DNA of 34,463 nt from Roseomonas sp. (lineage in GTDB: Bacteria; Pseudomonadota; Alphaproteobacteria; Acetobacterales; Acetobacteraceae), in the NCBI GenBank assembly GCA_020250005.1, contig JADCES010000172.1:1-34463 (forward strand). The letters are read 5' to 3'. Of this stretch, positions 3,872 to 24,639 are shown in pieces. Numbering within the stretch: the first letter of the stretch is position 1; each line of letters starts with the position of its first letter. The notes under the pieces were generated by a model. The model did no database searches. It worked only from the letters and a program-made list of their open reading frames with translations, and was not told the origin of the DNA. A program made the position numbers and the translations under genes.

Positions 3872-3920
3872 CCCCCCTCTGGACCCCGGCCCCCGGCTTG
3901 GGTTAGGAAAGCGCTGCGTT

Positions 3921-4003
3921 GCCCCTGTGGCGGAACGGTAGACGCAGACGACTCAAAATCGTCCGCCCGTAAGGGCATGGGAGTTCGAGTCTCCCTGGGG
4001 GCA
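3921..4003 (+). tRNA. tRNA-Leu(CAA)
   Basis: An 83-nt class II tRNA folds by hand. The acceptor GCCCCTG pairs with TGGGGGC (two G-U wobbles) and the discriminator is A. The D arm has a GCG/CGC stem. The anticodon stem GACGA/TCGTC encloses loop CTCAAAA, giving anticodon CAA. A long variable arm (GCCC-gtaa-GGGC) marks leucine. The T arm is GGGAG-TTCGAGT-CTCCC. The 3' CCA is not encoded. The stop codon of the convergent glycosyltransferase lies 10 bases downstream. Confidence 0.95.
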
Positions 4004-4012
4004 TTCTTCCAC

Positions 4013-4846
4013 TCAGGCCCGCGCCAAATAAGCCGTGACATGGCGATGATAATGGCCAAGCGAACGCGGCTTGCCCGCGCCAGCACGTTCCGCCCATCGG
4101 TTCATCGCACGCCAGCGCCATAGGATGCGGGCCACTTCCGGGGTGGCAGCGCCAAAATGCGCGGGATCATCGCGCAGCATCGCCAGTGCCGCGGCGTAAT
4201 CGGCATCAAAACTGCTGGTGCGCGTTTCCGTGAGCTGCCCTTCGCGCAGCTGGTAGCGATAGGCCAGGGCATCGCAAACCGGCGCATGCCCGCCGGTTTG
4301 GGCCAAGCCCCGCAAATCCCACCAGACATCATCAATCAAACGAAAGGGGCGAAAGGCCTCGGCGGTGGCGCGCGGGCGGAGCAGATGGAGCGAGGCGAAT
4401 ACCGTCCGCCATTCGCGCCAGCCCATCTCCTGCACCCCTTCACCCGGCACGTGGCGGAGCGCCGTGCCATCCGGGGCGCGGATGATGCTCGGGATCACAG
4501 CCGCACCCCGGGCGCGCGCTAGGGCCAGCGCCGCCGCCAGGCCATGCGCCTCCCCTTCATAGGCATCATCGGCGTCCAGCATGGTCACAAAGCTGCCTTG
4601 GGCCAAAGCCAGCGCCCGGTTGCGCGCAGCCGGCGCGCCAGAGGCAATCGGCCCGATCGGGGCGAAGACCAATCTTGGGTCGGGCGGCAGGCATTCCCGG
4701 TAATCTGTGCCGTCATCTGAGGCGATGATCAGTTCCACCGCCGCATCCCTGGCATGGGCAAAGACCGAGGCGACGGCCAGCGGGATTTCCGCGCGCAGGC
4801 CATGGGCGGCCATCAGGATGCTGATGTCTGGGGCGGCGGGGGGCAT
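4013..4846 (-). CDS. glycosyltransferase family 2 protein
   Basis: GT-A fold glycosyltransferase. The N-terminus DISILMAAHG is the nucleotide-sugar binding strand. ASDDGTDY follows, and MLDADDAYEG carries the DxD metal-binding motif, with GAPAARNRAL just before it. The C-terminal part, with RPFRLIDDVWWDLRGL, is less conserved. Start choice is uncertain. ATG at 4846 has a GGAA-like ribosome site and sits just before the conserved first strand (277 residues); an in-frame ATG at 4903 and a TTG at 4915 would add 19 or 23 weakly conserved residues. The gene is transcribed alone and is divergent from the ftsB-like gene. No sugar or acceptor can be inferred. Confidence 0.82.
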   Translation of the reverse strand: MPPAAPDISILMAAHGLRAEIPLAVASVFAHARDAAVELIIASDDGTDYRECLPPDPRLVFAPIGPIASGAPAARNRALALAQGSFVTMLDADDAYEGEAHGLAAALALARARGAAVIPSIIRAPDGTALRHVPGEGVQEMGWREWRTVFASLHLLRPRATAEAFRPFRLIDDVWWDLRGLAQTGGHAPVCDALAYRYQLREGQLTETRTSSFDADYAAALAMLRDDPAHFGAATPEVARILWRWRAMNRWAERAGAGKPRSLGHYHRHVTAYLARA

Positions 4847-11180: not shown

Positions 11181-12200
11181 ATGACCGAAGCGGTGAATCA
11201 GCCGCTCAAATCAAGTCTCGTCATGCCCCCGACCCGCATCGAAATTGACCATCGCGCCGCCAAGACGGGTGCCGAAAGGCATCCGGAAAAGGCGCATCGC
11301 CCGGATAACCCCATCCAGCGCAAACCCGCCTGGATCCGAGTAAAGGCGCCAACGCATCCGGTTTATCTGGAAACCCGCGCCCTGATGCGGGAGAAGAAGC
11401 TGGTCACGGTATGTGAGGAAGCCGCCTGCCCGAATATCGGCGAATGCTGGTCGCAACGCCACGCCACCATGATGATCATGGGCGAGACCTGCACGCGCGC
11501 CTGTTCCTTCTGCAATGTCGCAACCGGCATTCCAAAGCCGCTAGATGCGGATGAACCGCGCCGGGTCGCGGAAGCGGTTGCCTCGCTTGGGCTACGCCAT
11601 GTGGTGATTACCAGCGTGGACCGCGATGATCTGGCTGATGGCGGTGCGGCGCATTTTGCCGAAACCATTCGCGCCATTCGCGCCGCCGCCCCTGGCACCA
11701 CGATTGAGGTGCTGACACCGGATTTCCTACGAAAGGATGGCGCGCTGGAAGTGGTGGTGGCGGCACGGCCGGATGTGTTCAACCATAATCTGGAAACCGT
11801 GCCCGCGCTTTATCCCAGCATTCGGCCCGGCGCGCGGTATTATCATTCGCTGCGCCTGCTGGATCGTGTGAAGCAGCTTGATCCTTCCATCTTCACCAAA
11901 TCCGGCATCATGGTGGGGCTAGGCGAAAAGCGCATTGAAGTGCTGCAGGTGATGGATGATCTGCGCAGTGCGGAGGTGGATTTCCTGACTATCGGCCAAT
12001 ACCTGCAACCATCGGTGAAGCATGCCGCCGTGGATCGTTTCGTCACGCCAGATGAGTTTGAGGATTACGCCAAGGCCGCGCGCGGCAAGGGGTTCCTGTT
12101 GGTGTCAGCCACACCTTTGACGCGTTCCTCCTATCACGCGGATCGAGACTTCGCGGCGCTGAGTGCCGCGCGCAACGCGCAATTGGCCGCGCGAAGCTGA
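11181..12200 (+). CDS. lipA: lipoyl synthase
   Basis: Radical SAM enzyme (339 residues) that inserts two sulfurs into protein-bound octanoyl groups to make the lipoyl cofactor. Both iron-sulfur sites are visible. The auxiliary cluster cysteines are C78, C83 and C89 ([12 protein letters not shown]). The radical-SAM CxxxCxxC is C104, C108 and C111 (CTRACSFC). The conserved C-terminal RSSYHAD, which holds the third-cluster serine ligand, is present. A later ATG (11223) would trim a poorly conserved N-terminus. Placed behind lpd, it lets one transcript supply both the PDH subunits and the cofactor for the two lipoyl domains. Confidence 0.96.
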
Positions 12201-12201
12201 C

Positions 12202-12669
12202 ATGCCGACCCATGCGGAAAAGAAGGTGCTCCGTTATTCGCAGGAGCAGCTTTTCGACATGGTCGCGGATGTGGCGCGCTATCCCGAATTCCTGCCCTGG
12301 TGCGTCGGCGCGCGCGTGCTCAGCCGCGATGAACAGGTACTGGTGGCGGATTTGACCATCGGCTTTCGCATGTTTCGCGAAACCTTCCGGTCCCGCGTGG
12401 GCTTGAACAAGCCTGGCCATATTCACGTGACTTATGAAAATGGACCTTTCCGCTATTTGAACAATCATTGGCGCTTCACGCCAGTGGCGGGCGGGACGGA
12501 AGTGGATTTCTTCGTGGATTTCGAATTCCGCAGCCGCATTCTACAGGTGGCAATCGGCGTAGTGTTCAATGAAGCAGTGCGGCTGATGGTGCGCGCCTTC
12601 GAAAGGCGCGCGATGCATCTTTACGGGCGGCCGGGCGCGGCTGGCATTGGCAAGCCGGCCTCGGCCTGA
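12202..12669 (+). CDS. type II toxin-antitoxin RatA / Coq10-like START domain protein
   Basis: Small polyketide-cyclase/START-fold protein (155 residues). It begins MPTHAEKKVLRYSQEQLFDMVADVARYPEFLPWC, the standard Coq10/RatA N-terminus, and ends with FNEAVRLMVRAFERRA. Family members bind ubiquinone and support respiration (Coq10) or act on ribosomes (RatA, E. coli). In alphaproteobacteria next to lipA the quinone-chaperone role is the more likely, which is inference. ATG 12202 lies 1 base after the lipA stop; an upstream in-frame ATG (12163) inside lipA is less likely. Last gene of the PDH-lipA run, converging on a tctC gene 7 bases away. Confidence 0.88.
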   Translation: MPTHAEKKVLRYSQEQLFDMVADVARYPEFLPWCVGARVLSRDEQVLVADLTIGFRMFRETFRSRVGLNKPGHIHVTYENGPFRYLNNHWRFTPVAGGTEVDFFVDFEFRSRILQVAIGVVFNEAVRLMVRAFERRAMHLYGRPGAAGIGKPASA

Positions 12670-12676
12670 ATCCGTC

Positions 12677-13645
12677 CTATTGCAATTTGATGTTACGCGC
12701 CTGGATCATGTTGCGCCATTTGGCGTTCTCAGCCGCGAAATAGGCCGGCCATTCGGCGGTGCTGCCAATGGTGGGCACCACCGCAAGCGCGCTCAGGCGT
12801 TCGCGCGTATCGGGGGCTTCCATCGCGGCCTTGGTCAGCGCATGCATACGCGCCAGAATATCCGCAGGCACACCCGTGGGCGCTTGCAAGGCGATATGTT
12901 CCACCACTTCCACGCCCGGGAAGCCTTGTTCGGCGAAGGTCGGGATTTCGGGCGTGAGTGAGCTTCTTTCCCTTGTCGCAATGGCAAGCGCGCGCAGGGA
13001 GCCAGACCGGATATGCGGCAAAATGCCTGATGCAGCCTGGAAAACCATCGGTGTTTCATTCGCAAGCACCGCCTGCACCGCCGGCGCGCCACCGCGATAA
13101 CCGACATCCTGAATGGTAAGCCGCGCTTCCTGCAAAAAGAGTTCGGTCGCGAGATGCGTCGAAGACCCCGTGCCGGAATTGGCATAGGTCAGGTTGCTGT
13201 TCGGGCGGCGCGCAATTTCCACAAACTCCGCCAGGGTGCGCGCCGGAAAGCTCGGATGCACCACCATGATGATCGGCATGGAAGCAATCAGCCCGATACC
13301 CACAAAATCCTTTTCATTGTCATAGGGTAGCGGCATCAGATGCGGTGCCATGGCATAGGTGCTGACCGTGCTGACCAGCATGGTATAGCCATCGGGCCGC
13401 GCGCGCGCGACGCTATTGAAGCCAATCGTGCCATTGGCGCCGGTGCGGTTATCCACCACAAAGCTGCGGCCCGTATCGGTGGAAAGCTTTTGCGCCAGAA
13501 TGCGCGCCACCGCATCCGTCGAACCGCCCGCGGCCCAGGGCACCACCAGCGTAACCGGGCGGCTTGGCCAGGCATCCTGCGCGCGCGCAGCTATTGGCAG
13601 CAGCGCTGGCGCGGCAAGCAAGGCAAGGTGACGACGAGAGATCAT
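12677..13645 (-). CDS. tripartite tricarboxylate transporter substrate-binding protein (TctC/Bug family)
   Basis: Periplasmic solute-binding protein of about 322 residues. An RR-containing signal peptide (MISRRHLALLAAPALLPIAARA) is followed by the Bug-family start WPSRPVTLVVPWAAGGSTDAVAR, the loop that clamps carboxylates. Later family signatures are VVDNRTGANGTIG and LTYANSGTGSSTHLATELF. ATG 13645 has AGGAGG a few bases upstream; the frame extends to 13699 but without signal-peptide character. No TctA or TctB membrane partner is present in the window. It is separated by 227 bases from the MmgE/PrpD gene upstream, a gap in which I see no gene, only a TATAAA-like hexamer on the minus strand (13728-13733). 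Confidence 0.93.
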   Translation of the reverse strand: MISRRHLALLAAPALLPIAARAQDAWPSRPVTLVVPWAAGGSTDAVARILAQKLSTDTGRSFVVDNRTGANGTIGFNSVARARPDGYTMLVSTVSTYAMAPHLMPLPYDNEKDFVGIGLIASMPIIMVVHPSFPARTLAEFVEIARRPNSNLTYANSGTGSSTHLATELFLQEARLTIQDVGYRGGAPAVQAVLANETPMVFQAASGILPHIRSGSLRALAIATRERSSLTPEIPTFAEQGFPGVEVVEHIALQAPTGVPADILARMHALTKAAMEAPDTRERLSALAVVPTIGSTAEWPAYFAAENAKWRNMIQARNIKLQ

Positions 13646-15257: not shown

Positions 15258-16232
15258 CTACGCGTTGCCGCGCAGCACCTCCTTATTGATGACAACATCA
15301 GGATCAAGCTGACCCTTGAAATGGCTGATGATGCTCTCCGCACAGGAAAGCCCCATGCGGCGCATGCCCTGTTCTGTCGCGGCAGCGGAATGCGGGGAGA
15401 CCACTACATTCGGCAATTCAAGCAATGGCAGGCGTCTGGTAACGGGTTCTTCCCAGAATACATCAAGCCCAGCGGTCGCAAGATGCCCGGTCTTCAGCGC
15501 AGCAGTGAGTGCCGCTTCATCCACCAGCGTGCCGCGTGCTGTATTGATATAGGTGCCGCCTGGCTTCATGGCGGCAAGGAAGGTGGCATTCACCATGCCG
15601 CGCGTTTCTTCATTGCTCGGGCAATGGGTGGTGACGATATCGGCCTCCGCCAGGCCTTCATGCAATACCTTCACCGGGCGAAAGCCTGCGCCCTTGATCG
15701 TGTTTTGCGGGATATAGGGGTCATGCACCAGCACCTCCATCCCGAAGGCAGCGCATAGCCGCGCGACGCGCCCGCCAATGCGCCCGAAGCCGATGATCAG
15801 CACTTTGCGCCCGGATAGGTCCCAGGTTTTCAGCGAAGGCTTGGAACCCCAATCAAGCGCGCGCAAATTCCGATCATAATCTAGTGTACGCCGAGATGTG
15901 GACAGCATCAGCATCATCGCATGTTCGGCGACCGAAAGTGCGTTGGCATCGGGCGTCACGGTCAGCGGAATGCCGCGTTCGGTAAGTGCCTTCACATCTA
16001 CCGCATCATAACCTACGCCATGGCGCGCGCAGATGGAAAGCATCGGCGCCTTGGCCAGGAAATCACGATTGATCGGGGTGGCGCGGACAATGATGGCTTC
16101 CGCGGTCTTCATCGGCTCCCGCAGCGTATCCGCATTCACCTCGGTCAACATGGTAACCTTGAAATCAGGTTCCGCATGCAGCCTTGCCATGGCATCGGGG
16201 TGCAGCGGTCGCAGGCAAACGATATGGGGCAT
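15258..16232 (-). CDS. 2-hydroxyacid dehydrogenase (SerA/sulfolactate-dehydrogenase-like)
   Basis: NAD-dependent D-isomer-type 2-hydroxyacid dehydrogenase, 324 residues from ATG 16232. It has ICARHGVGYDAVD, the Rossmann motif GFGRIGGRVARL, catalytic Arg in INTARGTLVD, Glu in DVFWEEPV and His in VSPHSAAAT. The frame extends to 16283, but those extra residues lie in the intergenic and tctC side and look unlike the family. Between tctC (8 bases upstream) and the MmgE/PrpD gene. Because a two-subunit sulfopyruvate-decarboxylase-like enzyme is encoded in the same cluster, one possible reaction is sulfolactate to sulfopyruvate, but phosphoglycerate, lactate or hydroxypyruvate types cannot be excluded. 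Confidence 0.9.
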   Translation of the reverse strand: MPHIVCLRPLHPDAMARLHAEPDFKVTMLTEVNADTLREPMKTAEAIIVRATPINRDFLAKAPMLSICARHGVGYDAVDVKALTERGIPLTVTPDANALSVAEHAMMLMLSTSRRTLDYDRNLRALDWGSKPSLKTWDLSGRKVLIIGFGRIGGRVARLCAAFGMEVLVHDPYIPQNTIKGAGFRPVKVLHEGLAEADIVTTHCPSNEETRGMVNATFLAAMKPGGTYINTARGTLVDEAALTAALKTGHLATAGLDVFWEEPVTRRLPLLELPNVVVSPHSAAATEQGMRRMGLSCAESIISHFKGQLDPDVVINKEVLRGNA

Positions 16233-16240
16233 GGTGTTTC

Positions 16241-17209
16241 CTATTCTACCTTGGCGCCGGAAATGCGGACCAATTCGGCCCATTTCGGAATCTCGGAAGC
16301 GAGAAAGGCGCGGAATTCTTCGGGCGTGGACCCAACTGGCTCGCTGCCCTGCTGGGCAAGTTTCGCACGCATATCATCGGTGCGCATCACGGCACGGATT
16401 TCAGCGGATATGCGGTTGACGATCGGCGCCGGTGTGGCAGCCGGCGCCATATAGCCATTCCAGAGTGCCACTTCGAAGCCAGGCAGGGTTTCCGCAATGG
16501 TCGGTACATCGGGCAGCAATGCGGAACGCCGCGCGGTCGTTACGGCAATGGCGCGCAGTCGTCCTGCCTGTACATGGGCGATCACCTCCACCAAGGGCGC
16601 GGCCATGGCTTGGATTTTTCCACCGATCAGATCGGTCACGGCCGGCGTACCGCCGCGATAGGATACATGCGTGACCTCAATCCCGGTGCGCGCGGCGATC
16701 AATGCGGCGGAGAGGTGTTGCGATGTGCCCGACCCCGCATTGCCGAAATTGAGCACGCCCGGCTTCGCCTTGGCTTCCGCCACCAGCCCGGCAAAGTCGC
16801 GCGCTGCTACATCTGGATGCACCACCAGCAAATTTGGAATGAAAGTGGTTTGGCTGATCGGCGCGAAATCGCGCTGCGCATCAAAGGGCATATTGCGATA
16901 AAGCGCGCCATTCGTGGCATGCGTAGAACTTGTCGCCATCACCAGCGTATAGCCATCAGGCGCGGCACGCGCGACAGCCTCACTACCGATATTTCCAGCG
17001 GCGCCAGGGCGGTTTTCAATCACGACAGGCTGGCCAAGCCGGGGCGAAATCGCCTCAGCGACCAGGCGCGCGGTGATATCCGTGCTGCCGCCTGGTGCGA
17101 AGGGAACAATCACGCGTATGGGGCGATCCGGGCTCCATTGCGCCTGGGCCAGCGCCGGGCTTGCCGCCATGGCTGCGAGCCCCGCCAGAATTTGCCGTCT
17201 TTGCATCAT
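16241..17209 (-). CDS. tripartite tricarboxylate transporter substrate-binding protein (TctC/Bug family)
   Basis: Bug-family periplasmic binding protein of 322 residues. The signal peptide has a twin-basic start (MMQRRQILAGLAAMAASPALAQA). It is followed by RPIRVIVPFAPGGSTDITARLVAE, VVIENRPGAAGNIGSEAVA, YTLVMATSSTHATN and GVLNFGNAGSGTSQHLSAAL, all typical of the family. A second ATG lies one codon in. Encoded in the same minus-strand run as the decarboxylase subunits and the hydroxyacid dehydrogenase, so it probably captures the carboxylate that the cluster degrades. No TctA/TctB here. Confidence 0.94.
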   Translation of the reverse strand: MMQRRQILAGLAAMAASPALAQAQWSPDRPIRVIVPFAPGGSTDITARLVAEAISPRLGQPVVIENRPGAAGNIGSEAVARAAPDGYTLVMATSSTHATNGALYRNMPFDAQRDFAPISQTTFIPNLLVVHPDVAARDFAGLVAEAKAKPGVLNFGNAGSGTSQHLSAALIAARTGIEVTHVSYRGGTPAVTDLIGGKIQAMAAPLVEVIAHVQAGRLRAIAVTTARRSALLPDVPTIAETLPGFEVALWNGYMAPAATPAPIVNRISAEIRAVMRTDDMRAKLAQQGSEPVGSTPEEFRAFLASEIPKWAELVRISGAKVE

Positions 17210-17260
17210 TTCCTCCCTTTGATCAGACGCCGCCGATCTTCGTCGGCTGGCGCATTTCGC

Positions 17261-17863
17261 TCACAATTGATGATGCGCAGCCGGACCCATCACCGCTTCG
17301 CGCATGCGCGCTTGCAAGATCGCGCCTTCGCGCGGCGGCAGCACCAAGGGCTTGCTGGCAGCGTCAATCTTCGCGACCGCGAAGAAGGGGCCTTTGCCGG
17401 CATGGATCGCCTTATGCAGCGCCGGCACTTCATCGGGCTTGGTGACGAACATAGTATTCGAGATGCCCGCACCTTTCGCCATCATCACCAGATCAACGCC
17501 ATGGCGTGTCGCGGTTTCCTGCATGCCGGTTTCGCCGTAATGCTCATTGTCCTGGACAACGATGGAAAGATTGGCCGGCTTTTGCACCGCAATCGTCGCC
17601 AGCGCACCAATACCCATCAGCATTTCGCCATCGCCGGTAATCACCAGCACCTTGCGCTTGGGCTGAGCCAAAGCCAGACCAAGCCCGATCATGGCCGCAC
17701 CCCCCATGCCGCCCCAAAGCGGCAGGTTTTCCGCGCAATCACCAATGGCCGTGATGTCCCAGGCCGGCGCACCAAGCCCGGCAATCACCAGCATTTCACC
17801 ACGATCCGCGAGCAGCGCGCGGGTCAATTCTCGACGATCGAGTTTTCCGGAAGCAGCAAGCAT
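17261..17863 (-). CDS. TPP-dependent decarboxylase, TPP-binding (beta) subunit, sulfopyruvate decarboxylase-like
   Basis: C-terminal-type thiamine diphosphate domain as a separate 200-residue chain. The TPP/Mg motif starts with GDGEMLMG (GDG at 77-79) and ends at Asn106 (VVQDNEHYG). MGGAAMIGLGLALAQP precedes it. The sequence pattern follows ComE (sulfopyruvate decarboxylase beta) and phosphonopyruvate decarboxylase. Such enzymes need a partner with the pyrimidine-binding domain, and this is supplied by the gene ending 4 bases upstream. The start is ATG 17863 (MLAASGKLDRREL); a longer frame to 17911 overlaps the alpha gene. Product expected: an aldehyde from a 2-oxoacid. Confidence 0.87.
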   Translation of the reverse strand: MLAASGKLDRRELTRALLADRGEMLVIAGLGAPAWDITAIGDCAENLPLWGGMGGAAMIGLGLALAQPKRKVLVITGDGEMLMGIGALATIAVQKPANLSIVVQDNEHYGETGMQETATRHGVDLVMMAKGAGISNTMFVTKPDEVPALHKAIHAGKGPFFAVAKIDAASKPLVLPPREGAILQARMREAVMGPAAHHQL

Positions 17864-17867
17864 TTTT

Positions 17868-18419
17868 TCAGTCCTTCCCGAAAGTCTTGGCGCCAAGCAC
17901 GCGCTGGCCAATCAGGGTTGCGGTGGGGCGAAAGGTATTGAAGGCCAGGCGAATGGTGGCATTCACCGTGGGCGCGATATCTTCCGGCGTATCGGCGCGG
18001 CGCACCAGCGTGCCCATGGCTTCAAGCACGGTTTGCGTCGCATTGCCCATGGGCACTTGCGCCGGATTGAATTCACCGAAATCGCCGCGCATCGTCACCA
18101 ACATCGGCAGTGGGCAGCGATGCATGGTGGAAAGCGAAAGCATATTGATGCAATTGCCAACACCAGAAGATTGCATCAGCAGCACGCCCTTCGCCCCACC
18201 AAGCCAGGCGCCTTGCAAAAGCGCGATGCCTTCTTCTTCGGTGGTCAGCGTCACCACGGTCATTTCATTATCCGCGAGGCAGCGTCGGATCAGCCGGGAA
18301 TGCCCGGCATCCGGCACCAATGCCACTTGCGTAATATTGTGGGTCTTGAGCAGGGAATAGATCTGATCCGGCCAATCGGCCGCAGCGTCGGGCGCCTTGT
18401 CTATTGAATGCTGGTCCAT
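17868..18419 (-). CDS. TPP-dependent decarboxylase, Pyr-domain (alpha) subunit, sulfopyruvate decarboxylase-like
   Basis: A 183-residue chain equal to the N-terminal (pyrimidine-binding) domain of TPP decarboxylases. TTEEEGIALLQGAWLGG (59-75) holds the conserved Glu that activates TPP. LMQSSGVGNCIN (81-92) and QVPMG (121-125) match the ComD (sulfopyruvate decarboxylase alpha) pattern. ATG 18419 is chosen; the frame continues to 18599 but that part overlaps the arfB remnant on the other strand. First gene of the minus-strand catabolic cluster, divergent from the arfB locus, so the promoter must lie in 18420-18506. Substrate unproven (sulfopyruvate, phosphonopyruvate or another 3-substituted pyruvate). 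Confidence 0.85.
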   Translation of the reverse strand: MDQHSIDKAPDAAADWPDQIYSLLKTHNITQVALVPDAGHSRLIRRCLADNEMTVVTLTTEEEGIALLQGAWLGGAKGVLLMQSSGVGNCINMLSLSTMHRCPLPMLVTMRGDFGEFNPAQVPMGNATQTVLEAMGTLVRRADTPEDIAPTVNATIRLAFNTFRPTATLIGQRVLGAKTFGKD

Positions 18420-18506
18420 GGTTTTCCTGATCCTTGATGGCCCAACATCCTGCGCCCGGGCCTTCATGGCAAGACAGGCGGGTCCCGGATGTTCTATGAA
18501 AAGCGC

Positions 18507-18620
18507 ATGATTCGCATCACCCCCGCCATCGCCATTGCCGAGCATGAGCTGAAGGAGGCGTTTCTGCGCGCCTCCGGCCCCGGGGGGCAGAATATGCATG
18601 AATTCGAGCCAATTCCATGA
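18507..18620 (+). pseudogene. arfB: 5' remnant of native arfB (truncated after GGQN)
   Basis: A 37-codon frame reading MIRITPAIAIAEHELKEAFL, then RASGPGGQN: the N-terminus of the peptidyl-tRNA hydrolase/rescue factor ArfB with its GGQ motif at 26-28. After Asn29 it loses all family similarity (MHEFEPIP) and stops at TGA 18618-18620, so the junction to foreign DNA is near 18593. The stop overlaps the ATG of a complete, different arfB (ATGA, 18617-18620). The matching C-terminal remnant is at 21159-21275. About 75 native codons between them are missing. Confidence 0.88.
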
Positions 18621-19039
18621 TCCGCGTTACGGAGTCGATCAGTATAGATGAGGCGGAACTCCACGAGGATTTTCTTCGCTCGAGTGGCGCGGGTGGGCAG
18701 AACATCCAGAAAGTCGAGTCAGCCGTTCAACTGCGGTTCGATGCCGCAAACAGTCCGAACCTACCCGATGCGGTGAAAGCCCGCCTTCTTCGCTTGGCAG
18801 GTCACCGGGCAACGCGGGAAGGCGTGATCGTCATCACCGCGCAGCAGCACCGGACACAGCATCGGAACCGGGAAGATGCGTTGGCCCGCCTGCTCGAATT
18901 GATCAAGGAGGCAGCGCGTCCACCGCCCCCGCCTCGCAAGAAAACGCGACCAACTCTTGCCTCGAAGGTTCGTAGGCTTCAGGGCAAAGCGCTGCGATCA
19001 ACCATCAAGCGCGGGCGCGGGCGACCCGATATGGATTGA
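18617..19039 (+). CDS. arfB: alternative ribosome-rescue factor ArfB (peptidyl-tRNA hydrolase), acquired copy
   Basis: Complete ArfB of 140 residues, which releases stalled ribosomes by hydrolysing peptidyl-tRNA. GGQ motif at 26-28 in SSGAGGQNIQKVESAVQLRFD, ITAQQHRTQHRNREDALARL in the middle, and a basic Lys/Arg-rich tail (KKTRPTLASKVRRLQGKALR) that enters the mRNA channel in characterised ArfB. It begins inside the broken native gene, with its ATG overlapping the remnant's stop and no good ribosome site of its own, so translation is probably coupled to the remnant. Its tail differs from the native remnant at 21159, showing a separate origin. Confidence 0.93.
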   Translation: MIRVTESISIDEAELHEDFLRSSGAGGQNIQKVESAVQLRFDAANSPNLPDAVKARLLRLAGHRATREGVIVITAQQHRTQHRNREDALARLLELIKEAARPPPPPRKKTRPTLASKVRRLQGKALRSTIKRGRGRPDMD

Positions 19040-19135
19040 GCGACAGCGAAAGTAGCTACCAGCATCCCCAACGGTCGGCGCGGCAACCTCACTTCATCGG
19101 CGTTCCGTGCCATGCCCTACGGGGTGAACCAGCCC

Positions 19136-19163
19136 TTGACATAACCATTTACATCGATATATC
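19136..19163 (+). promoter_or_regulatory. promoter of island arsR (leaderless)
   Basis: Consensus -35 TTGACA at 19136-19141, 16-bp spacer, -10 TATATC at 19158-19163. The transcription start expected about 7 bases later falls at 19170-19171, the arsR ATG itself, and there is no Shine-Dalgarno sequence, so a leaderless mRNA is predicted. The -10 lies in the operator palindrome. Confidence 0.65.
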
Positions 19164-19179
19164 CAGAATTATGGATATA
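19158..19179. promoter_or_regulatory. palindromic ArsR operator overlapping -10 and start codon
   Basis: 22-bp imperfect palindrome with arms TATATCCA and TGGATATA, in which 10 of 11 symmetric pairs match. It covers the -10 hexamer and the arsR initiation codon, the position expected for autorepression by an ArsR-family dimer. Assignment to this ArsR is inference from position. Confidence 0.6.
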
Positions 19180-19542
19180 ATAGATGCAGCCGAAGCTTTC
19201 AGCGCTCTCTCGCAGGAGACCCGCCTCGCGGTGCTGCGCCTCCTGATTGAGGCCGGGGCCGAAGGTGTCCCTGCCGGGGACATTGCGCGTCACTTCGGGA
19301 CGCCACAGAACACGATGTCCACTAACCTCGCCATCCTCGCCCGCGCGGGGTTTGTCACCTCGCGGCGTGACGGCCGTTCGGTGATCTATGCCGCCGACTA
19401 CGCTGGACTAAGGAGGTTAATCACCTTCTTGCTTCAAGACTGCTGCAAGGGGCGGCCCGAGGTCTGCACGCCCCTGCTCGACGCCGCACTGGCGCCCGCA
19501 GCGGCACCCTGTTGCCCACTTCCTGAATCGCCGGAGAATTGA
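19171..19542 (+). CDS. arsR: ArsR/SmtB-family metalloregulator
   Basis: Winged-helix repressor of 123 residues. The N-terminal helix is AFSALSQETRLAVLRLL. The recognition HTH is VPAGDIARHFGTPQNTMSTNLAILARAGFV (33-62), followed by the wing RRDGRSVIYAAD. Cys91-Cys92 and Cys99 (DCCKGRPEVC) form a C-terminal thiol cluster like that of alphaproteobacterial ArsR proteins linked to arsenite sensing. A further C114-C115 pair lies in the tail (CCPLP). ATG 19171 is chosen because the HTH fold starts there and the promoter fits; the frame is open further up to 19036. Overlap with the next gene's TTG alternative suggests co-translation. Confidence 0.9.
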   Translation: MDIIDAAEAFSALSQETRLAVLRLLIEAGAEGVPAGDIARHFGTPQNTMSTNLAILARAGFVTSRRDGRSVIYAADYAGLRRLITFLLQDCCKGRPEVCTPLLDAALAPAAAPCCPLPESPEN

Positions 19543-19544
19543 CG

Positions 19545-20969
19545 ATGCCAGATGCCGTCTTCCTTGATCGCTCCTTGCCGGTCGCCATCATCGGGGGTGG
19601 CCCAGTCGGCCTCGCCGCCGCCGCTCACCTCATTGAACGCGGTCTGCGCCCGTGCGTCTTTGAAGCCGGGTCCGAACCCGGCAGCGCCGTCCGCGAATGG
19701 CGCCATGTGCGCATGTTCTCGCCGTGGCGGTTCAACGTGGATGCAGCGGCCCGCAGGCTGCTTGAAGCCAAGGGTTGGAAAGCCCCGGATACGGACGCCT
19801 TTCCCACAGGCGCTGATCTTTTTGCCGTCTACCTCGCACCATTGGCTGCGGCGCTCGCCAAGGCGGGTGCTGACCTCCGCTATAATGCGAAGGTGATTGG
19901 CGTCTCTCGTCGTCATCACGATCGCTTGCGTGAAGGACAGCGCGCCGCCGGTCGTGGGCGGGATGCCGCCCCCTTCGTGCTGCATCTAGCCGCGCCTGAC
20001 GGCACCATTCAGGTGGTCGAGGCGCGCGCGGTGATCGACTGCTCTGGTACATGGGCCAGCCCTAACCCGGCCGGTGCGCATGGCCTTCCGGCGCCAGGTG
20101 AGACCGCAAATGCCGACCGAATCTCCTATGGCATCCCCGACGTGCTGGGCATCAGTAGAAGCACCTATGCGGGCGCAACGACGCTCGTGCTCGGCGGCGG
20201 CCATTCCGCGATGAACGCGGTGCTCGATCTTGTCACCTTAGCCAGTCAAGCGCCGGGCACGCGCATTCTATGGGCATTCCGGCGCCCGCTAGCCGATATA
20301 AACTTTGGCGGTGGCAAAGCAGACGGTCTGGCGGCGCGCGGTGCGCTTGGCGCGAAGGCCAAGGCGCTGATCGAGTCCCAACAGGTACAGGCGCTGGCGC
20401 CCTTTCAGGTTGATCGGATCGAGCGCGAAGGTGACCGGCTGCTGGTCCATGGCGACCGAGGCGGTAACACCGATACGGTGCTGACTGACCGCATCATCGT
20501 CGCTACCGGCTTCCGACCTGATCTGTCATGGCTTGGGGAGGTGCGTCTTACGCTTGATCCCGCCGTGCAGGCGACACCTGCGCTGGCACCCCTAATCGAT
20601 CCCAACCTCCACTCCTGCGGGACGGTGCGTCCGCATGGCGAGGCCGAGCTTCGGCACCCGGATGAGCCGGGCTTCTATGTTGCGGGCATGAAAGCGTACG
20701 GCCGAGCGCCGACCTTCTTGTTGGCAACAGGTCACGAGCAGGTGCGCAGTATTGCTGCCCACCTTGCCGGTGACATTGCTGCTGCACGGCGCGCGGAACT
20801 CGTTTTGCCCGAAACAGGCGTTTGCGCGACGCAGCGCACCGCATCGGTGTCGGCAGCAACGAGTGACGGCTGCAGTCCCAGTAGTGCCTTCGAGCCTGTC
20901 CGCAAGCCGGTCGTGGCAGCGGCGTGTTGTGGCCCCTTGCCCCGCGAAGCATCGTCAGGGTCCGCATGA
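19545..20969 (+). CDS. FAD/NAD(P)-binding oxidoreductase, ArsO-like flavoprotein
   Basis: Flavoprotein of 474 residues. The N-terminal FAD Rossmann motif is VAIIGGGPVGLAAAAHL (GGGPVG at 17-22). A second dinucleotide motif LVLGGGHSAMN lies near 214-224. Then IIVATGFRPDLSWLGE and, near the end of the core, PGFYVAGMKAYGRAPTFLLATG. Related genes often sit beside arsR and have been called arsO (putative flavin monooxygenase), with no settled reaction known to me. The C-terminal tail is Cys-containing (GVC, GC, AACCGPLP) and echoes the CCPLP tail of the upstream ArsR. Start ATG 19545 has GGAG upstream. Likely co-transcribed with arsR and induced by the same metalloid signal. Confidence 0.85.
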   Translation: MPDAVFLDRSLPVAIIGGGPVGLAAAAHLIERGLRPCVFEAGSEPGSAVREWRHVRMFSPWRFNVDAAARRLLEAKGWKAPDTDAFPTGADLFAVYLAPLAAALAKAGADLRYNAKVIGVSRRHHDRLREGQRAAGRGRDAAPFVLHLAAPDGTIQVVEARAVIDCSGTWASPNPAGAHGLPAPGETANADRISYGIPDVLGISRSTYAGATTLVLGGGHSAMNAVLDLVTLASQAPGTRILWAFRRPLADINFGGGKADGLAARGALGAKAKALIESQQVQALAPFQVDRIEREGDRLLVHGDRGGNTDTVLTDRIIVATGFRPDLSWLGEVRLTLDPAVQATPALAPLIDPNLHSCGTVRPHGEAELRHPDEPGFYVAGMKAYGRAPTFLLATGHEQVRSIAAHLAGDIAAARRAELVLPETGVCATQRTASVSAATSDGCSPSSAFEPVRKPVVAAACCGPLPREASSGSA

Positions 20970-20998
20970 TGTGCGCGATGAAAAGGCGCTGTTGTTAA
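20966..20998 (+). pseudogene. 10-codon frame after the flavoprotein, possible start of a truncated third gene
   Basis: ATG 20966 overlaps the flavoprotein stop (ATGA) and reads MMCAMKRRCC before TAA. The operon-like overlap and early stop fit the beginning of another ars-type gene lost when the island's right end was formed, but such a short frame may also be chance. No function is assigned. Confidence 0.25.
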
Positions 20999-21158
20999 AA
21001 CCTATGCGGCAGCACGGGTGGTAGGTAAACATCCATGCAGAGCATCGGACTGCCCTTGGACTTACGTTCTGCCGCTTATCCATGATGCGAAATTCTGCGT
21101 ATCGGTGCAGATCGATGCACGGTTCGTAGAAGCCGCAAGGAACGCACATCAGAAGCTT
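20999..21158. other. right-flank segment of the island, no gene recognised
   Basis: About 160 bases between the flavoprotein operon and the native arfB 3' remnant. They match neither arfB nor the flavoprotein. It contains a GTGCA/TGCAC inverted repeat with a 6-base loop (21105-21120) but no credible coding frame, transposase fragment or obvious terminal repeat. It must hold the right junction of the acquired DNA, probably near 21150. Confidence 0.5.
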
Positions 21159-21275
21159 ATGACCCCACCCCGCAAGGCCACCAAACCAACCGCTGGTTCA
21201 AAGGCGCGCAGGCTGGAAGCGAAAACGCGGCGCGGCGCCGTGAAACGGCTGCGCGGCGGGGCTATAGACGATTGA
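21159..21275 (+). pseudogene. arfB: 3' remnant of native arfB
   Basis: Thirty-eight codons in frame to TGA 21273-21275. They read TPPRKATKPTAGSKARRLEA and then KTRRGAVKRLRGGAIDD, the Pro/Lys/Arg-rich C-terminal tail of ArfB. It aligns with, but differs from, the tail of the complete copy at 18617-19039 (RKKTRPTLASKVRRLQGKAL). It lacks GGQ and most of the domain and has no start of its own, so it is a dead fragment. With the 5' remnant at 18507 it defines the native locus that the island interrupts. Confidence 0.85.
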
Positions 21276-21293
21276 ATTCAGAAAAAACGGCAC

Positions 21294-21328
21294 AAAAAAA
21301 GGCGATGTCCCATCGGAACACCGCCTTT
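21294..21328 (-). terminator. rho-independent terminator of the HU gene
   Basis: Read on the minus strand, AAAGGCGGTGTTCC and its partner GGGACATCGCCTTT form a 14-bp stem (two G-U pairs) with a 3-base loop (21298-21328), followed by seven T (the A run 21294-21300 on the plus strand). It lies 17 bases past the HU stop codon. There is no T run on the plus side, so it acts mainly on HU transcripts. Confidence 0.9.
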
Positions 21329-21344
21329 GCTGAAAAGCGAAAAC

Positions 21345-21653
21345 TCAGGCCTTCGCCTTACGCTTGCCCTTCTTCACGCCGGCCAGCGCAGCGCCCTTCA
21401 GCGCCGGGCTCGCCTTGAAGCGAACGGTGGCGCCAGCCTTGATCTGCACCTTCTCACCGGTCTTGGGGTTCAAGCCGGTGCGCTTCGGGGTTTCGCGCAC
21501 CGCGAAAGCACCGAAATCAGGAATGGTGAAACGGCCGGAGCTGACGATTTCAGTCTTGATCGCGTCAATGATATCGGCGGCAAGCTTGCCCGCGGCAACC
21601 GCGGACATGTCACCTGACTTGGCGATCACGTCAGTGAGGAACTTCTTCGACAT
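21345..21653 (-). CDS. HU family DNA-binding protein
   Basis: Histone-like nucleoid protein of 102 residues: an N-terminal dimerising helix pair (SKKFLTDVIAKSGDMSAVAAGKLAADIIDAI), the beta arm region FTIPDFGAFAVRETPKRTGLNPKTGE, then VRFKASPALK. It carries an unusually basic, Lys/Ala-rich C-terminal extension (GVKKGKRKAKA), as is often seen in alphaproteobacterial HU. It bends DNA and organises the nucleoid. GGGAG ribosome site just before ATG 21653, and a strong terminator right after the stop, so it is a single-gene transcript. Confidence 0.95.
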   Translation of the reverse strand: MSKKFLTDVIAKSGDMSAVAAGKLAADIIDAIKTEIVSSGRFTIPDFGAFAVRETPKRTGLNPKTGEKVQIKAGATVRFKASPALKGAALAGVKKGKRKAKA

Positions 21654-21832
21654 TGTTCGATTCTCCCTTAAGGATGGCTTGGAATAGCCGAGGATTCGGG
21701 GCTTGTCAGCAGGTGCAAAGGATTTTTTTGCGTCCTTGACAAGAAAATTTCAGAGCGCCAGCCGAAAGACTCCGAAAGCCCCATCCTGGCATCACAGGAA
21801 GCCCTGAATTCCGCGGAAAATCCCGCGTTTCA

Positions 21833-22804
21833 TCAATTGATGGAGGCGCCCGAAGCCCTGACAATCGGCGTCCATTTCGCGGTCTCCGCGCGCATGAAGC
21901 CGGCCAATTCCTCAGGCGTGCTGGGGGCCGCTTCCAGCCCGTGGCGCGCAAGATGCGCGACGATTTCGGGATCACGCAGCGATTCGACCAGCGCTTCATT
22001 GACCCTTGTCACAATGGGCCGGGGCAGGTTACGCGGACCCATCAGCGCATACCAATTGGCTACCTCATAACCCGGCAAAGGCCCGGCTTCCGCAATGGTG
22101 GGTGTATCGGGCAAAAGCCGGCTGCGCTGCGGCAGGGGCACCGCCAAGGCGCGCAGCTTGCCCGCTTCAATCTGCGGCAGCACGGTCGCCGCAGTGGCCA
22201 CCGAGAAATCCACCTTCCCCGAGATCAAATCAGTGATCAATTGCCCGCCACCGCGATAGGGCACATGCACCGTGCTGATCTTGGCCATGGCATCAAGCAA
22301 GGCGCCGCCCAAATGCCCCGCGCTGCCGACACCCGATGACCCATAGGTCAATTGATCCGGCCGCGCGCGCGCTGCCGCGATCAATTCCGGCAGGCTGCGC
22401 CAGGGGCGATCCACGGGAACCACCAGGATATTGGTGACCTCAACGGAACGCGAAATCGGTGTCAGATCCGTCATGACATCAAAGGGCAAGCGCGCCATGA
22501 TCGGGTTCAGCACCAGCGATGCGATGGTGCCCATCATGAGCGTATGCCCATCGGATGGCGAATTCACCGTGGCTTCGGACGCCAGATTCCCGCCGGCACC
22601 GGGGCGGTTTTCCACAATGATGGGCTGGCCCAAAAGCGCTTGCAGCTTGTTCGTCAGCGTGCGCGTGGTGATATCCGTGCCACCACCGGGCGCGAAACCA
22701 ACCAGGATGCGAATCGGGCGCTGCGGATTCCACACGCCCTGCGCGGCAAGGGGTGCGCCGGCAAGCAGGGCAGGCGCGGCCAAAAGGCTACGGCGGTGCA
22801 ACAT
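21833..22804 (-). CDS. tripartite tricarboxylate transporter substrate-binding protein (TctC/Bug family)
   Basis: Bug-family binding protein of 323 residues. The signal peptide MLHRRSLLAAPALLAGAPLAAQG has a twin-arginine start. Mature part: NPQRPIRILVGFAPGGGTDITTRTL, IIVENRPGAGGNLASEATV, LTYGSSGVGSAGHLGGALLD and VHVPYRGGGQLITDLISG. Divergent from the next tctC gene across 109 bases, and separated by 179 bases without a visible gene from HU downstream. No membrane components are nearby, so it must use TctAB encoded elsewhere or act in sensing. Confidence 0.94.
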   Translation of the reverse strand: MLHRRSLLAAPALLAGAPLAAQGVWNPQRPIRILVGFAPGGGTDITTRTLTNKLQALLGQPIIVENRPGAGGNLASEATVNSPSDGHTLMMGTIASLVLNPIMARLPFDVMTDLTPISRSVEVTNILVVPVDRPWRSLPELIAAARARPDQLTYGSSGVGSAGHLGGALLDAMAKISTVHVPYRGGGQLITDLISGKVDFSVATAATVLPQIEAGKLRALAVPLPQRSRLLPDTPTIAEAGPLPGYEVANWYALMGPRNLPRPIVTRVNEALVESLRDPEIVAHLARHGLEAAPSTPEELAGFMRAETAKWTPIVRASGASIN

Positions 22805-22913
22805 GCGCTTCCTTCCTTTCCCGATCAGCCGCTTTGACGCCGGCGCAAATCATGCTGTTCTTTCTTTTGCTTCATAGCCGGCCGGAAAGCGCCGCGCCAG
22901 TCAGGGGGAAAGC

Positions 22914-23900
22914 ATGTCGGGAAACAACATTACGCGTCGTCCGATTCTTTTGACGGGGCTGGCGGCACTCGCGACGCCGCGGCTGGCGCGCGCCAGCACC
23001 TATCCGGAACGTCCGATCCGCCTCGTGATTCCCTTTGGCGGCGGCGGGCAAACCGACATCGTTTCCCGCGTCACGGCGGACGCCTTGCAGCAGCGGCTTG
23101 GCCAGACCGTGCTGGCCGATAATCGCCCGGGCGGGGCAGGCAATCTGGCCGCGGAGGCAGTCGCCCGCGCCCCGGCTGATGGCTATACCGTGCTGGTCGC
23201 GACCATGGGCACGAATAGCGGGCTGAATGCGCTGCTCTACAAATCCGTGGGCTATGATTCGCAGCGCGATTTCGCGCCGGTTGGGATGTTCTGCACAACG
23301 TCAAACCTGCTGGTGGTGCATAACTCCATCCCCGGGCGGGACTTCAATGAAGTGGTGGCCTGGATCAAGGCCAATCCCGGCAAATTCACTTTCGCTTCCG
23401 CTGGCGTTGGCGCCATTACGCATCTGATTATGGAAGATATGGGCGCGCGGCTTGGCCTTGATATGGTGCATGTTCCCTATCGCCAGACCACCAATGCCAT
23501 GACCGATCTGATCGCCGGGCGCGTGCATGCGCGCTGCCTTGGGCTGCCGGAAGGCGAACCGCTCCGCCAGGTGCAAAGCGTGCGCCCCGTGGCTGTCACC
23601 ACCGTTGAACCGCGCCCTGAATGGCCGGGCGTGCCCACCATGGGCCAGACCATTCCGGGCTTTGAGGGTTCAAGCTATTTCGGCCTTGCCGTGCCCGCCC
23701 AAACCCCGCGCGAGATCGTCGTCAGGCTCAATGCCGCGCTGCGTGAGGCCTTGGCCGATGAAAAGGTCCGCGCGGCCTATAAGCGCGTTGGCGCCGACCC
23801 GGCCGATCCGGCCTCGCCCGAGGATTTCGCCGCCCGCGCCAAGCGTGATGGCGAACGCTGGGCGCCGCTGATCCGCCGGCTCAATCTTGTCACGGAATAG
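22914..23900 (+). CDS. tripartite tricarboxylate transporter substrate-binding protein (TctC/Bug family)
   Basis: Bug-family binding protein of 328 residues. The signal peptide carries TRRPILLTGLAALATPRLARA. Then YPERPIRLVIPFGGGGQTDIVSRV, LADNRPGGAGNLAAEAVA, FTFASAGVGAITHLIMEDMG and VHVPYRQTTNAMTDLIAG. The clamp loop reads FGGGGQTD instead of the usual FAPGGSTD, so ligand preference may differ from the three other TctC proteins here. GGGGGAAAG-type ribosome site before ATG 22914. The shared 109-base divergent region holds a TTGACG hexamer (22834-22839) but no clear -10. Confidence 0.93.
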   Translation: MSGNNITRRPILLTGLAALATPRLARASTYPERPIRLVIPFGGGGQTDIVSRVTADALQQRLGQTVLADNRPGGAGNLAAEAVARAPADGYTVLVATMGTNSGLNALLYKSVGYDSQRDFAPVGMFCTTSNLLVVHNSIPGRDFNEVVAWIKANPGKFTFASAGVGAITHLIMEDMGARLGLDMVHVPYRQTTNAMTDLIAGRVHARCLGLPEGEPLRQVQSVRPVAVTTVEPRPEWPGVPTMGQTIPGFEGSSYFGLAVPAQTPREIVVRLNAALREALADEKVRAAYKRVGADPADPASPEDFAARAKRDGERWAPLIRRLNLVTE

Positions 23901-23955
23901 AAACGCCGGCGAAAAGGGGGCTGCCCGCGCCGCGCGGCTGCGCTAAACTATAGAG

Positions 23956-24639
23956 GTGAATATCCTGGCACCCCTCCAGCCGCGGCTGGATATTGATGTC
24001 GCCTTCGACCTGATCTGCCCCTGGTGCTATCTGGGCGTCAGGCGGTTGCGTCGCGCCCTGCGGGCCAGGCCGGATATCATTCCGGAACTGGTCTGGCGGC
24101 CCTTTTTGCTCAACCCGGATATTCCCCCAGGCGGTGTTTCCCGCGCGGAATTCGTCGCGCGCAAATTTGGTGGTGAGGACCGCGCACGGCGCCTGCAGAA
24201 TGCGCTGACCGAACTTGGCCGGTCTGAGGGGATCAGCTTTCGCTTTGACCTGATGGGGCGCGTGCCCTCCAGCATCACCGCGCATCGCCTCGTGCGCTAT
24301 GCGGTGCGGGAAGGCCTGGGCGAGATGATGGTGGAAGCGCTGTTCCACGCCTATTTCACCAATGGCGTTGATATTGGCGATCCTGCTCGGCTAGCCCATT
24401 TGGCTGGGCGCATTGGGCTCGACTCACAGGCGGCACTGGCCTTCCTAAGGTCAATTGAAGAGGCCGAGGCGGTGCATACCGAAAACCTTCGCGCCCATCG
24501 GCTGGGCATCAATGGCGTGCCTTGCTTCATCATTGCCGGGCAACAGGCCATCGCGGGCGCACAGGAACCCGAGGTGCTGGAAAGGCTGCTGGATGTCGCC
24601 CTGCAGCAGCATCACTTCTCTGGCGGCGATGGCGGCTGA
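23956..24639 (+). CDS. DsbA family oxidoreductase (FrnE-like)
   Basis: Thioredoxin-fold protein of 227 residues with the redox motif CPWC at 21-24 in AFDLICPWCYLGVRRL, a helical insertion, and the cis-Pro loop in INGVPCFIIAGQQAIAGAQ. It resembles the FrnE/2-hydroxychromene-2-carboxylate isomerase-like branch of DsbA (PF01323), cytoplasmic proteins without signal peptide. A disulfide oxidoreductase or isomerase role is the family inference. GTG start at 23956, following AGAGG. It runs in the same direction as the preceding tctC but is probably separate. tRNA-Val follows 48 bases downstream. Confidence 0.88.
   Translation: MNILAPLQPRLDIDVAFDLICPWCYLGVRRLRRALRARPDIIPELVWRPFLLNPDIPPGGVSRAEFVARKFGGEDRARRLQNALTELGRSEGISFRFDLMGRVPSSITAHRLVRYAVREGLGEMMVEALFHAYFTNGVDIGDPARLAHLAGRIGLDSQAALAFLRSIEEAEAVHTENLRAHRLGINGVPCFIIAGQQAIAGAQEPEVLERLLDVALQQHHFSGGDGG

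Follow-up and report, generated by a model that had tools for sequence, protein, structure and literature searches.

Why does a bacterial genome hold the gene of the ribosome-rescue factor ArfB in two native pieces, with a second, complete arfB between them? The question arises from a 34,463-nucleotide stretch of Roseomonas sp. (Acetobacteraceae; contig JADCES010000172.1), here called the window, in which the native arfB is broken at codon 31, behind the codons of the GGQ motif, and is separated from its own 3′ part by an island carrying a divergent arfB (the copy), an arsR-type gene and a flavoprotein gene. The answer that we favor, at a probability of roughly 0.75, is that the locus is the left-end remnant of an element of the large serine recombinase (LSR) type that carried a foreign arfB, the right part of the element having been deleted. 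This reading is built on the position of the left junction, on LSR elements found at the same codons of arfB elsewhere, and on a leader reading frame that overlaps the start of the carried gene. The parts of the locus are as follows.

17261..18422, minus strand: sulfopyruvate-decarboxylase-like alpha and beta genes of the left flank, which also adjoin the intact arfB in relatives
18507..18599, plus strand: native arfB 5′ piece, codons 1–31 (ArfB profile match, intact relatives)
18507..18620, plus strand: leader reading frame, made of the native 5′ piece and about 21 nt of island DNA, as far as a TGA that shares bases with the copy's ATG (ATGA)
18617..19039, plus strand: complete foreign arfB, encoding an ArfB of 140 aa with the GGQ motif (profile match, tree)
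19158..19179, no strand: inverted repeat TATATCC-N8-GGATATA, candidate ArsR operator overlapping the arsR start (read from the sequence)
19171..19542, plus strand: arsR-type regulator, likely start at ATG 19171 (mechanical open reading frame start at 19036; profile match)
19539..20969, plus strand: FAD/NAD(P)-binding oxidoreductase, ArsO-like, far under the ArsO cut-off (profile match)
20970..21116, no strand: residual island DNA with no recognized gene, alignable among the eight carriers
21117..21275, plus strand: decayed native arfB 3′ part, clean from 21159
21345..21653, minus strand: HU/IHF-like DNA-binding gene of the right flank, which also adjoins the intact arfB in relatives

The original prediction, made from the letters of the window, had recognized three arfB pieces, and each of them is matched by the NCBIfam ArfB model NF006718. 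The complete copy reaches 187.4 bits (cut-off 100) and has the GGQ motif and, in the alignment, the basic C-terminal tail of an ArfB. The native 5′ piece (33.2 bits, E 3.7e-8, model positions 3–31) and the native tail (38.5 bits, E 8.4e-10, model positions 105–136) score under the cut-off because both are short. Searching the rest of this genome at E ≤ 0.001 gave no further arfB match.

Comparison with relatives bears out that the two short pieces belong to a former native arfB. The genus sample comprised 35 genomes including that of the window, 33 of them with an arfB match (none was found in G009 and G028). Seven further genomes (G025, G007, G018, G015, G005, G034, and G027) carry the copy at 92–97% identity, in every case between the sulfopyruvate-decarboxylase-like pair and the HU-like gene, as in the window. 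An uninterrupted arfB of 423 bp stands at the same place, next to the HU-like gene as had been anticipated, in nine genomes and ten loci (G002, G008, G013 with two loci, G020, G023, G024, G026, G030, and G032); G024 comes from the same series of metagenome-assembled genomes (MAGs) as the carriers. The surroundings of arfB were read in the same way in the carriers, in the nine genomes with an intact gene and in G004, that is, in part of the genus sample; in G004 the HU-like gene is not beside arfB in the stretch read. From these alignments the native 5′ piece and the tail are parts of one gene, whose right part is dead and undergoing decay.

The left junction is uniform. The distance from the native start to the start of the copy is 110 nt, with the same break, in seven of the eight carriers, and native sequence in this clade stops at the AA of GTC-AA or at most 4 bases past it. 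In the window the break coincides with the AA of codon 31 (~18597–18598) or is no more than a few bases away from it, as in three other arfB splits described below; the LSR core at this junction is mutated in the window and is clearest in the other carriers. In G018 the native 5′ piece is gone and the copy stands directly at the native start (locus L035, position 5502), an arrangement that would result if the DNA between the two ATGATCCGC starts were deleted; it amounts to a natural full takeover of the native start.

The right side is ragged. The native tail had been placed from 21159 onward, with about 75 native codons missing; it resumes earlier, at 21117, and both figures need revision. 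Aligned to the intact G032 protein, native sequence begins again at residue ~79 in G005 and G018 (where the first residues are weakly matched), at 87 in G025, 88 in G027, 95 in G007, and 124 in G034, in which only the last 17 native residues remain; one larger right-side deletion is common to G015 and G034. Because the tail resumes at ~79 in G005 and G018, about 50 native codons were lost in the least decayed carriers, and the further losses are later decay.

The spacer at 20970..21116 was considered as further decayed native arfB and rejected, 58 of 300 shuffled sequences scoring as high as the window. The corresponding numbers (of 300) were 52 for G025, 34 for G018, 139 for G015, 74 for G005, and 14 for G034, and 0 for both G007 and G027; these were plain letter shuffles in which dinucleotides were not preserved. 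Since only G007 and G027 beat all shuffles, most of the spacer is taken to be island DNA.

The carried gene stands in a foreign position. When 62 ArfB proteins were placed in a tree, the group's ten intact genes fell into one clade with twelve other genes of the genus (support 100/99), and the eight copies formed a clade of their own (99/99) elsewhere in the family. It is thus the intact genes and not the copy that group with the genus, as the original prediction required, although the approximately unbiased (AU) test is only borderline in its rejection of one clade uniting copies and intact genes (p 0.0497). Within the family, the tree gives the copy no supported neighbor. The copy is 58–62% identical to the intact genes of the group.

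A counterpart with an integrase comes from an Acetobacteraceae MAG, G196 (locus L093), where a 6.1-kb insertion lies in arfB at the GGQ-N-V codons. Its order is native 5′ piece, complete arfB, DNA methyltransferase gene, open reading frames without assigned function, a gene for a 586-aa LSR, and the rest of the native gene. The target core is repeated at both junctions, where CAGAACGTCAA is present in two cores 6062 nt apart, and the empty site is represented by the intact arfB at the same place in the congener G049. The native pieces are identical to the G049 gene at 83 of 92 and 318 of 341 positions (90.2% and 93.3%), and the carried arfB at 67 of 89 and 248 of 322 (75–77%). Native sequence is continuous across both junctions and no native arfB was lost. 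The recombinase has Resolvase, Recombinase, and zinc-ribbon domains and matches the phage integrase family phrog_95 at E 1.9e-57. The element-side half-sites form an inverted repeat around AA with 17 of 28 pairs (shuffled mean 7.2; 1 of 5000 shuffles reaches this value), and with 18-bp arms AA is clearly the best center, with 14 pairs against 8 for the next. The carried arfB is 72% identical to the copy of the window. Two related LSRs (loci L164 and L175, 33–39% identical to that of L093) lie, judged by eye, inside peroxiredoxin-like and comM-like genes, and the family of the L093 recombinase may aim at conserved protein genes; weak arfB-like matches in L164 and L175 turned out not to be arfB.

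A Novosphingobium MAG, G887 (locus L141), has its arfB cut at the same codons, with the element spread over two contigs. On one contig the native 5′ part runs through GGQNVNKV and is followed, 70 nt past the core, by a frame of 97 codons. Residues 4–87 of this frame match Resolvase (E 4.3e-8), and over 84 aa their identity to the L093 LSR is 45%; downstream of this recombinase fragment the sequence resembles, by eye, the start of an IS3-type transposase. On the other contig a divergent arfB ends 16 nt before a native tail that begins at the same codons. The element-side half-sites again pair at 17 of 28 positions around AA (shuffled mean 7.5; 0 of 5000 shuffles reach this). The LSR gene starts 70–78 nt from the core in both L093 and G887, and the carried arfB is oriented with the native gene in both. 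The layouts are reversed: the L093 element has the carried arfB on its left and the LSR on its right, that of G887 the other way round. In G681 a divergent arfB is followed by a native tail identical at 110 of 111 positions to the intact arfB of its congener G593; the left part of the split was not found in this genome, so that it contributes a right junction only. The original prediction had likened the locus to elements that enter a translation gene and restore it, and had proposed a search of other genomes for arfB fragments; G196, G887, and G681 support that idea, the first with an integrase and the second with an LSR fragment. Among the 298 genomes of the Sphingomonas family, 18, from several genera and including G597, G784, G599, G737, and G886, have a listed arfB that is 68–80% identical to the arfB carried in G887, and may be descendants of similar replacements.

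The core codons of the carried genes differ from those of the target. They read QN-I/V/T-QK in all eight carriers of the window clade, QNIQK in L093, and QHVNTT in G887; QKVNK in G681 nearly keeps the target. Such altered codons could protect the carried arfB from the same integrase.

The arrangement at the left end also bears on expression. In all seven carriers with a preserved left junction, the native frame is open for 37 codons, through the first bases of the island, and ends in a TGA that overlaps the ATG of the copy, before which no clear Shine-Dalgarno sequence was seen by eye. In L093 the native frame likewise stays open through ~77 nt of element DNA to a TGA overlapping the start of the carried arfB; the two start codons are 170 nt apart, in the same phase as the 110 nt of the window clade. 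This leader design does not apply to G887, whose carried arfB lies at the opposite end. The overlap suggests translational coupling between the leader and the carried gene. The median ratio of nonsynonymous to synonymous substitution (dN/dS) is 0.106 for the 29 native 5′ codons, 0.093 for the copy (21 pairs of seven copies, G027 left out), and 0.109 for eight intact genes, while the tail decays. The copy is probably functional, and may be expressed from the native promoter and start through coupling. Caulobacter, another alphaproteobacterium, depends on arfB for survival when it lacks trans-translation (PMC8012679), which would be a reason for an element that cuts arfB to bring another.

The history of the locus might then run as follows. 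An LSR-type element would have inserted in the arfB of a lake Roseomonas ancestor at the GGQ-N-V-N codons, cutting codon 31, and the complete foreign arfB at its left end would have let the cell keep a ribosome-rescue factor. The surviving cargo, arsR and the flavoprotein gene, would be the start of an ars operon. A single later deletion, from behind the flavoprotein gene to native codon ~80, may have taken away the rest of the operon, the integrase, the right attachment (att) site and native codons ~32–80, whereupon the dead native tail would have decayed differently by line. The native start was presumably kept, and ribosomes finishing the 37-codon leader probably restart at the ATG of the foreign arfB. 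The locus would now be a remnant without mobility of its own, handed from species to species through homologous recombination in its flanks. Both the past mobility of the island and the deletion we infer from the comparison with L093. It had been proposed that the native gene was replaced and not cleanly inserted into; native codons are indeed gone, but the replacement is best explained as insertion followed by deletion into the native tail, because the L093 insertion lost no native arfB.

Several points weigh against this reading. In the window the integrase and the right att site are absent, native sequence resuming only at residue ~79–124 in this clade, and no excised form was found; nor was an undeleted form of the island found. 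Searched at E ≤ 1e-25, the genome gave no match to the L093 recombinase. In agreement with the original prediction, no integrase was recognized by eye among the open reading frames of 16000–24000, and no long flanking repeat was found in 18400–21400. An integrase-bearing element with arfB, arsR, and the flavoprotein gene was not met with in the loci examined, among which the adjacency of these three genes is confined to the window clade. The copies of L093 and of the window are not joined with support in the tree. The integrase is visible in two events only, one of them a fragment on two MAG contigs, and arfB splits are rare in the genomes searched. The symmetry center AA was picked after the junctions had been seen, and in G887, with 18-bp arms, it is barely the best center (9 pairs against 8 for the next). 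Recombination with intact alleles could account for the purifying selection on the native 5′ piece. Finally, the seven leaders are of one origin, so that there are two cases of possible coupling, the window clade and L093, and not eight.

The absence of an integrase and of an att pair at the locus, together with the loss of ~50 native codons even in the least decayed carriers, would also suit a chance allele replacement, in which a foreign arfB-arsR-flavoprotein fragment entered by illegitimate or short-homology recombination without any site-specific enzyme. We regard this as unlikely, although it is the rival that deserves most weight. Two LSR-associated insertions and one further arfB split have their break at the same place; the four breaks lie within codons 28–33, a span of 18 out of 423 nt, for which a rough reckoning gives a chance of the order of 1e-4 if breaks were even. 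A chance event would also leave unexplained why a whole divergent arfB is present in each of the four. Two arfB pieces beside a whole arfB could, alternatively, recall a resident gene that was duplicated and then diverged, or a copy that arose through gene conversion. The borderline AU test (see above) leaves this idea some room, yet it is very improbable: at its low identity to the intact genes the copy falls outside the clade that joins them to the genus, and it is accompanied by arsR and the flavoprotein gene. Least credible of all is an artefact of assembly or binning. The seven named carriers are MAGs, but the island occurs in eight genomes on separate contigs, four of them longer than 100 kb, with flavoproteins that are 82.8–98.5% identical.

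Beyond the remnant itself, we propose that arfB is a recurrent attachment gene for serine-integrase elements in Alphaproteobacteria, which cut it at the GGQ-N-V-N codons, a sequence that catalysis keeps constant, and bring a whole divergent arfB, in two cases in a position where it can be coupled to the native leader; the lake Roseomonas remnant would have become an allele of long standing, in recombination with the intact allele across species. We hold this wider proposal to be about evenly balanced between right and wrong.

The distribution of the island among the carriers is patchy, and the island is exchanged by recombination. Descent of the carriers as one clade was rejected: in the rpoB region, carriage requires 7 changes (shuffled mean 6.2; AU p 6.7e-5), and in the flanks 6 changes each (shuffled means 6.0 on the left and 6.2 on the right; AU p 2e-10 and 9e-68). 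For rpoB, found in 18 of the 20 genomes searched, the ten non-carriers of the AU test include G004 and G009 (in which arfB was not found), and the count without G009 is also 7; the flank alignments had 17 rows on the left and 18 on the right, one G013 locus being too short on the left and omitted. A recent single sweep was likewise discarded, as the flavoprotein differs by up to 17% between carriers. The window and G005 share 98.5% identity in the flavoprotein but only 88.5% in the right flank. With G034 the figures are 91.3% for the flavoprotein and 98.6% and 96.5% for the flanks. Because the identities of island and flanks disagree in this way, the island moves between flanks by recombination. 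Over the 28 pairs, nucleotide identity is 82.8–98.5% for the flavoprotein gene and 84.2–96.0% for the copy, against 85.6–98.6% for the flanks; with divergence of the same order as that of the flanks, the island is old.

As for the cargo, the arsR product scores 68.1 bits against the ArsR/SmtB model NF033788 (cut-off 55), so that this half of the proposed pair stands. The ArsO-like label of the flavoprotein fares less well, at 39.4 bits against a cut-off of 425 for the ArsO model, its best matching stretch being residues 15–66. The inverted repeat TATATCC-N8-GGATATA looks like an ArsR operator, and an operator repeat at the start of the gene is a trait of the ArsR family. A promoter scan near the arsR start gave one promoter-like match where 0.7 was expected by chance, that is, no signal above chance. 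A relative of the flavoprotein gene stands in the order arsR-flavoprotein-arsC-acr3 in G070; the cargo of the window fits the start of an operon so ordered, and would agree with truncation on the right. In the genome of the window an Acr3 exporter gene lies elsewhere and does not follow the island, and in the carriers G007, G015, G018, and G034 this gene is absent or a fragment. Outside the island, the left-flank sulfopyruvate-decarboxylase-like genes score under the cut-offs of their families. The window also holds four paralogous genes (12698–13645, 16241–17209, 21833–22804, and 22914–23900; 33–45% identical to the gene at 21833), which resemble tripartite-tricarboxylate receptor genes; the two that were scanned had no family match.

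Splits of arfB were sought more widely with thresholds that miss short remnants, so that the window itself scored as one match. In Acetobacteraceae, 295 of 397 genomes have an arfB, and beyond the window clade a split was found in G196. Five genomes of the family have more than one match at E ≤ 1e-6 (G007, G166, G196, G346, and G420), and two (G241 and G254) have partial matches only. G420 and G346, considered as splits at the core, showed none in their open reading frame lists and match rows, and G166 has two whole arfB genes on two contigs. On contig 14 of G420 (locus L320) two arfB genes, at 3884–4275 and 12187–12579, lie 8 kb apart on the same strand, one with a stop and a frame change. 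The arfB fragment of G241 is at a contig end, and the sole match in G254 (contig 55, locus L321, 5832–6056) is a 3′ fragment from residue 66. In the Sphingomonas family 291 of 298 genomes have an arfB, and a split, with two matches, was found in G681. There was none among 162 genomes of the class (54 with arfB, that of the window included), where the two matches of G114 lie on two contigs. The G887 split was found among 80 named loci, a set that also holds L093 and the seven carriers. Among the candidates set aside, L138 was spurious as a split, its frames being broken; L213 has a gene that is PrfH-like by eye in a phage-like contig, with no junction; and in L186 a weak second match behind a whole arfB is no native tail.

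Searches of plasmids and phages were also negative. Among plasmids, 102 records match part of the island, none of them reaching 80% coverage, and all arfB matches in plasmids (66 records) and in phages (4 records) are below 60% identity. No viral contig matched the copy or the L093 LSR as single queries; an arfB-alignment query gave 30 viral loci, and the ten checked (L184–L192 and L213) contained no split. One of these, L184, has an arfB in a 13-kb IMG/VR contig with phage-like replication genes, and another, L187, is a contig with a Mu-type transposase-like gene that ends just behind arfB (both judged by eye).

Known systems resemble parts of this arrangement. The integrative and conjugative elements of the SXT/R391 family, whose integrase is of the tyrosine family, enter and restore a translation-termination gene, prfC. 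Their own type 1 integrase places them at the 5′ end of prfC, with a hybrid PrfC as the outcome, and one of them, ICEpMERPH, carries arsenic genes (PMC6947025). The arfB elements differ in cutting at the catalytic motif, in using a serine recombinase and in supplying a whole divergent gene; the island of the window, with arfB as the target and no integrase seen, does not belong to the SXT/R391 family. With LSR elements and gene-restoring islands they share the LSR, the dyad att half-sites and a common core in the target gene. Many genomic islands restore the gene that they enter (PMC12884075, in part), and the available main text of that paper makes no mention of arfB. The literature searched, including PMC4131195 in part, gave no report of arfB (yaeJ) as an integration target; the survey of Mageeney (2020) was outside this search and may list arfB. 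Prophages and islands in ssrA, the gene of tmRNA, such as CP4-57, are also mobile DNA at a ribosome-rescue gene, and excision of CP4-57 switches the rescue pathway (PMC10107115, in part). CP4-57 differs in having an RNA gene as its target, entered at the 3′ end by a P4-type integrase, and no replacement gene is mentioned in that portion of the source. The arsR-flavoprotein order of the island is that of ars operons of the type arsR-flavoprotein-arsC-acr3, from which the island differs by the lack of arsC and acr3.

An element that restores its target gene is therefore of a known kind; the variation on it consists of arfB as the target, the cut in the catalytic motif and the supply of a whole divergent gene with an overlapping leader. 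If the proposed reading is true, the gene of a ribosome-rescue protein joins tmRNA and prfC as a target of site-specific mobile DNA, and the damage is repaid in a different way, with an entire foreign gene sitting where the start of the host can drive its expression. This would point to integrases whose target is a catalytic-site sequence conserved throughout Alphaproteobacteria.

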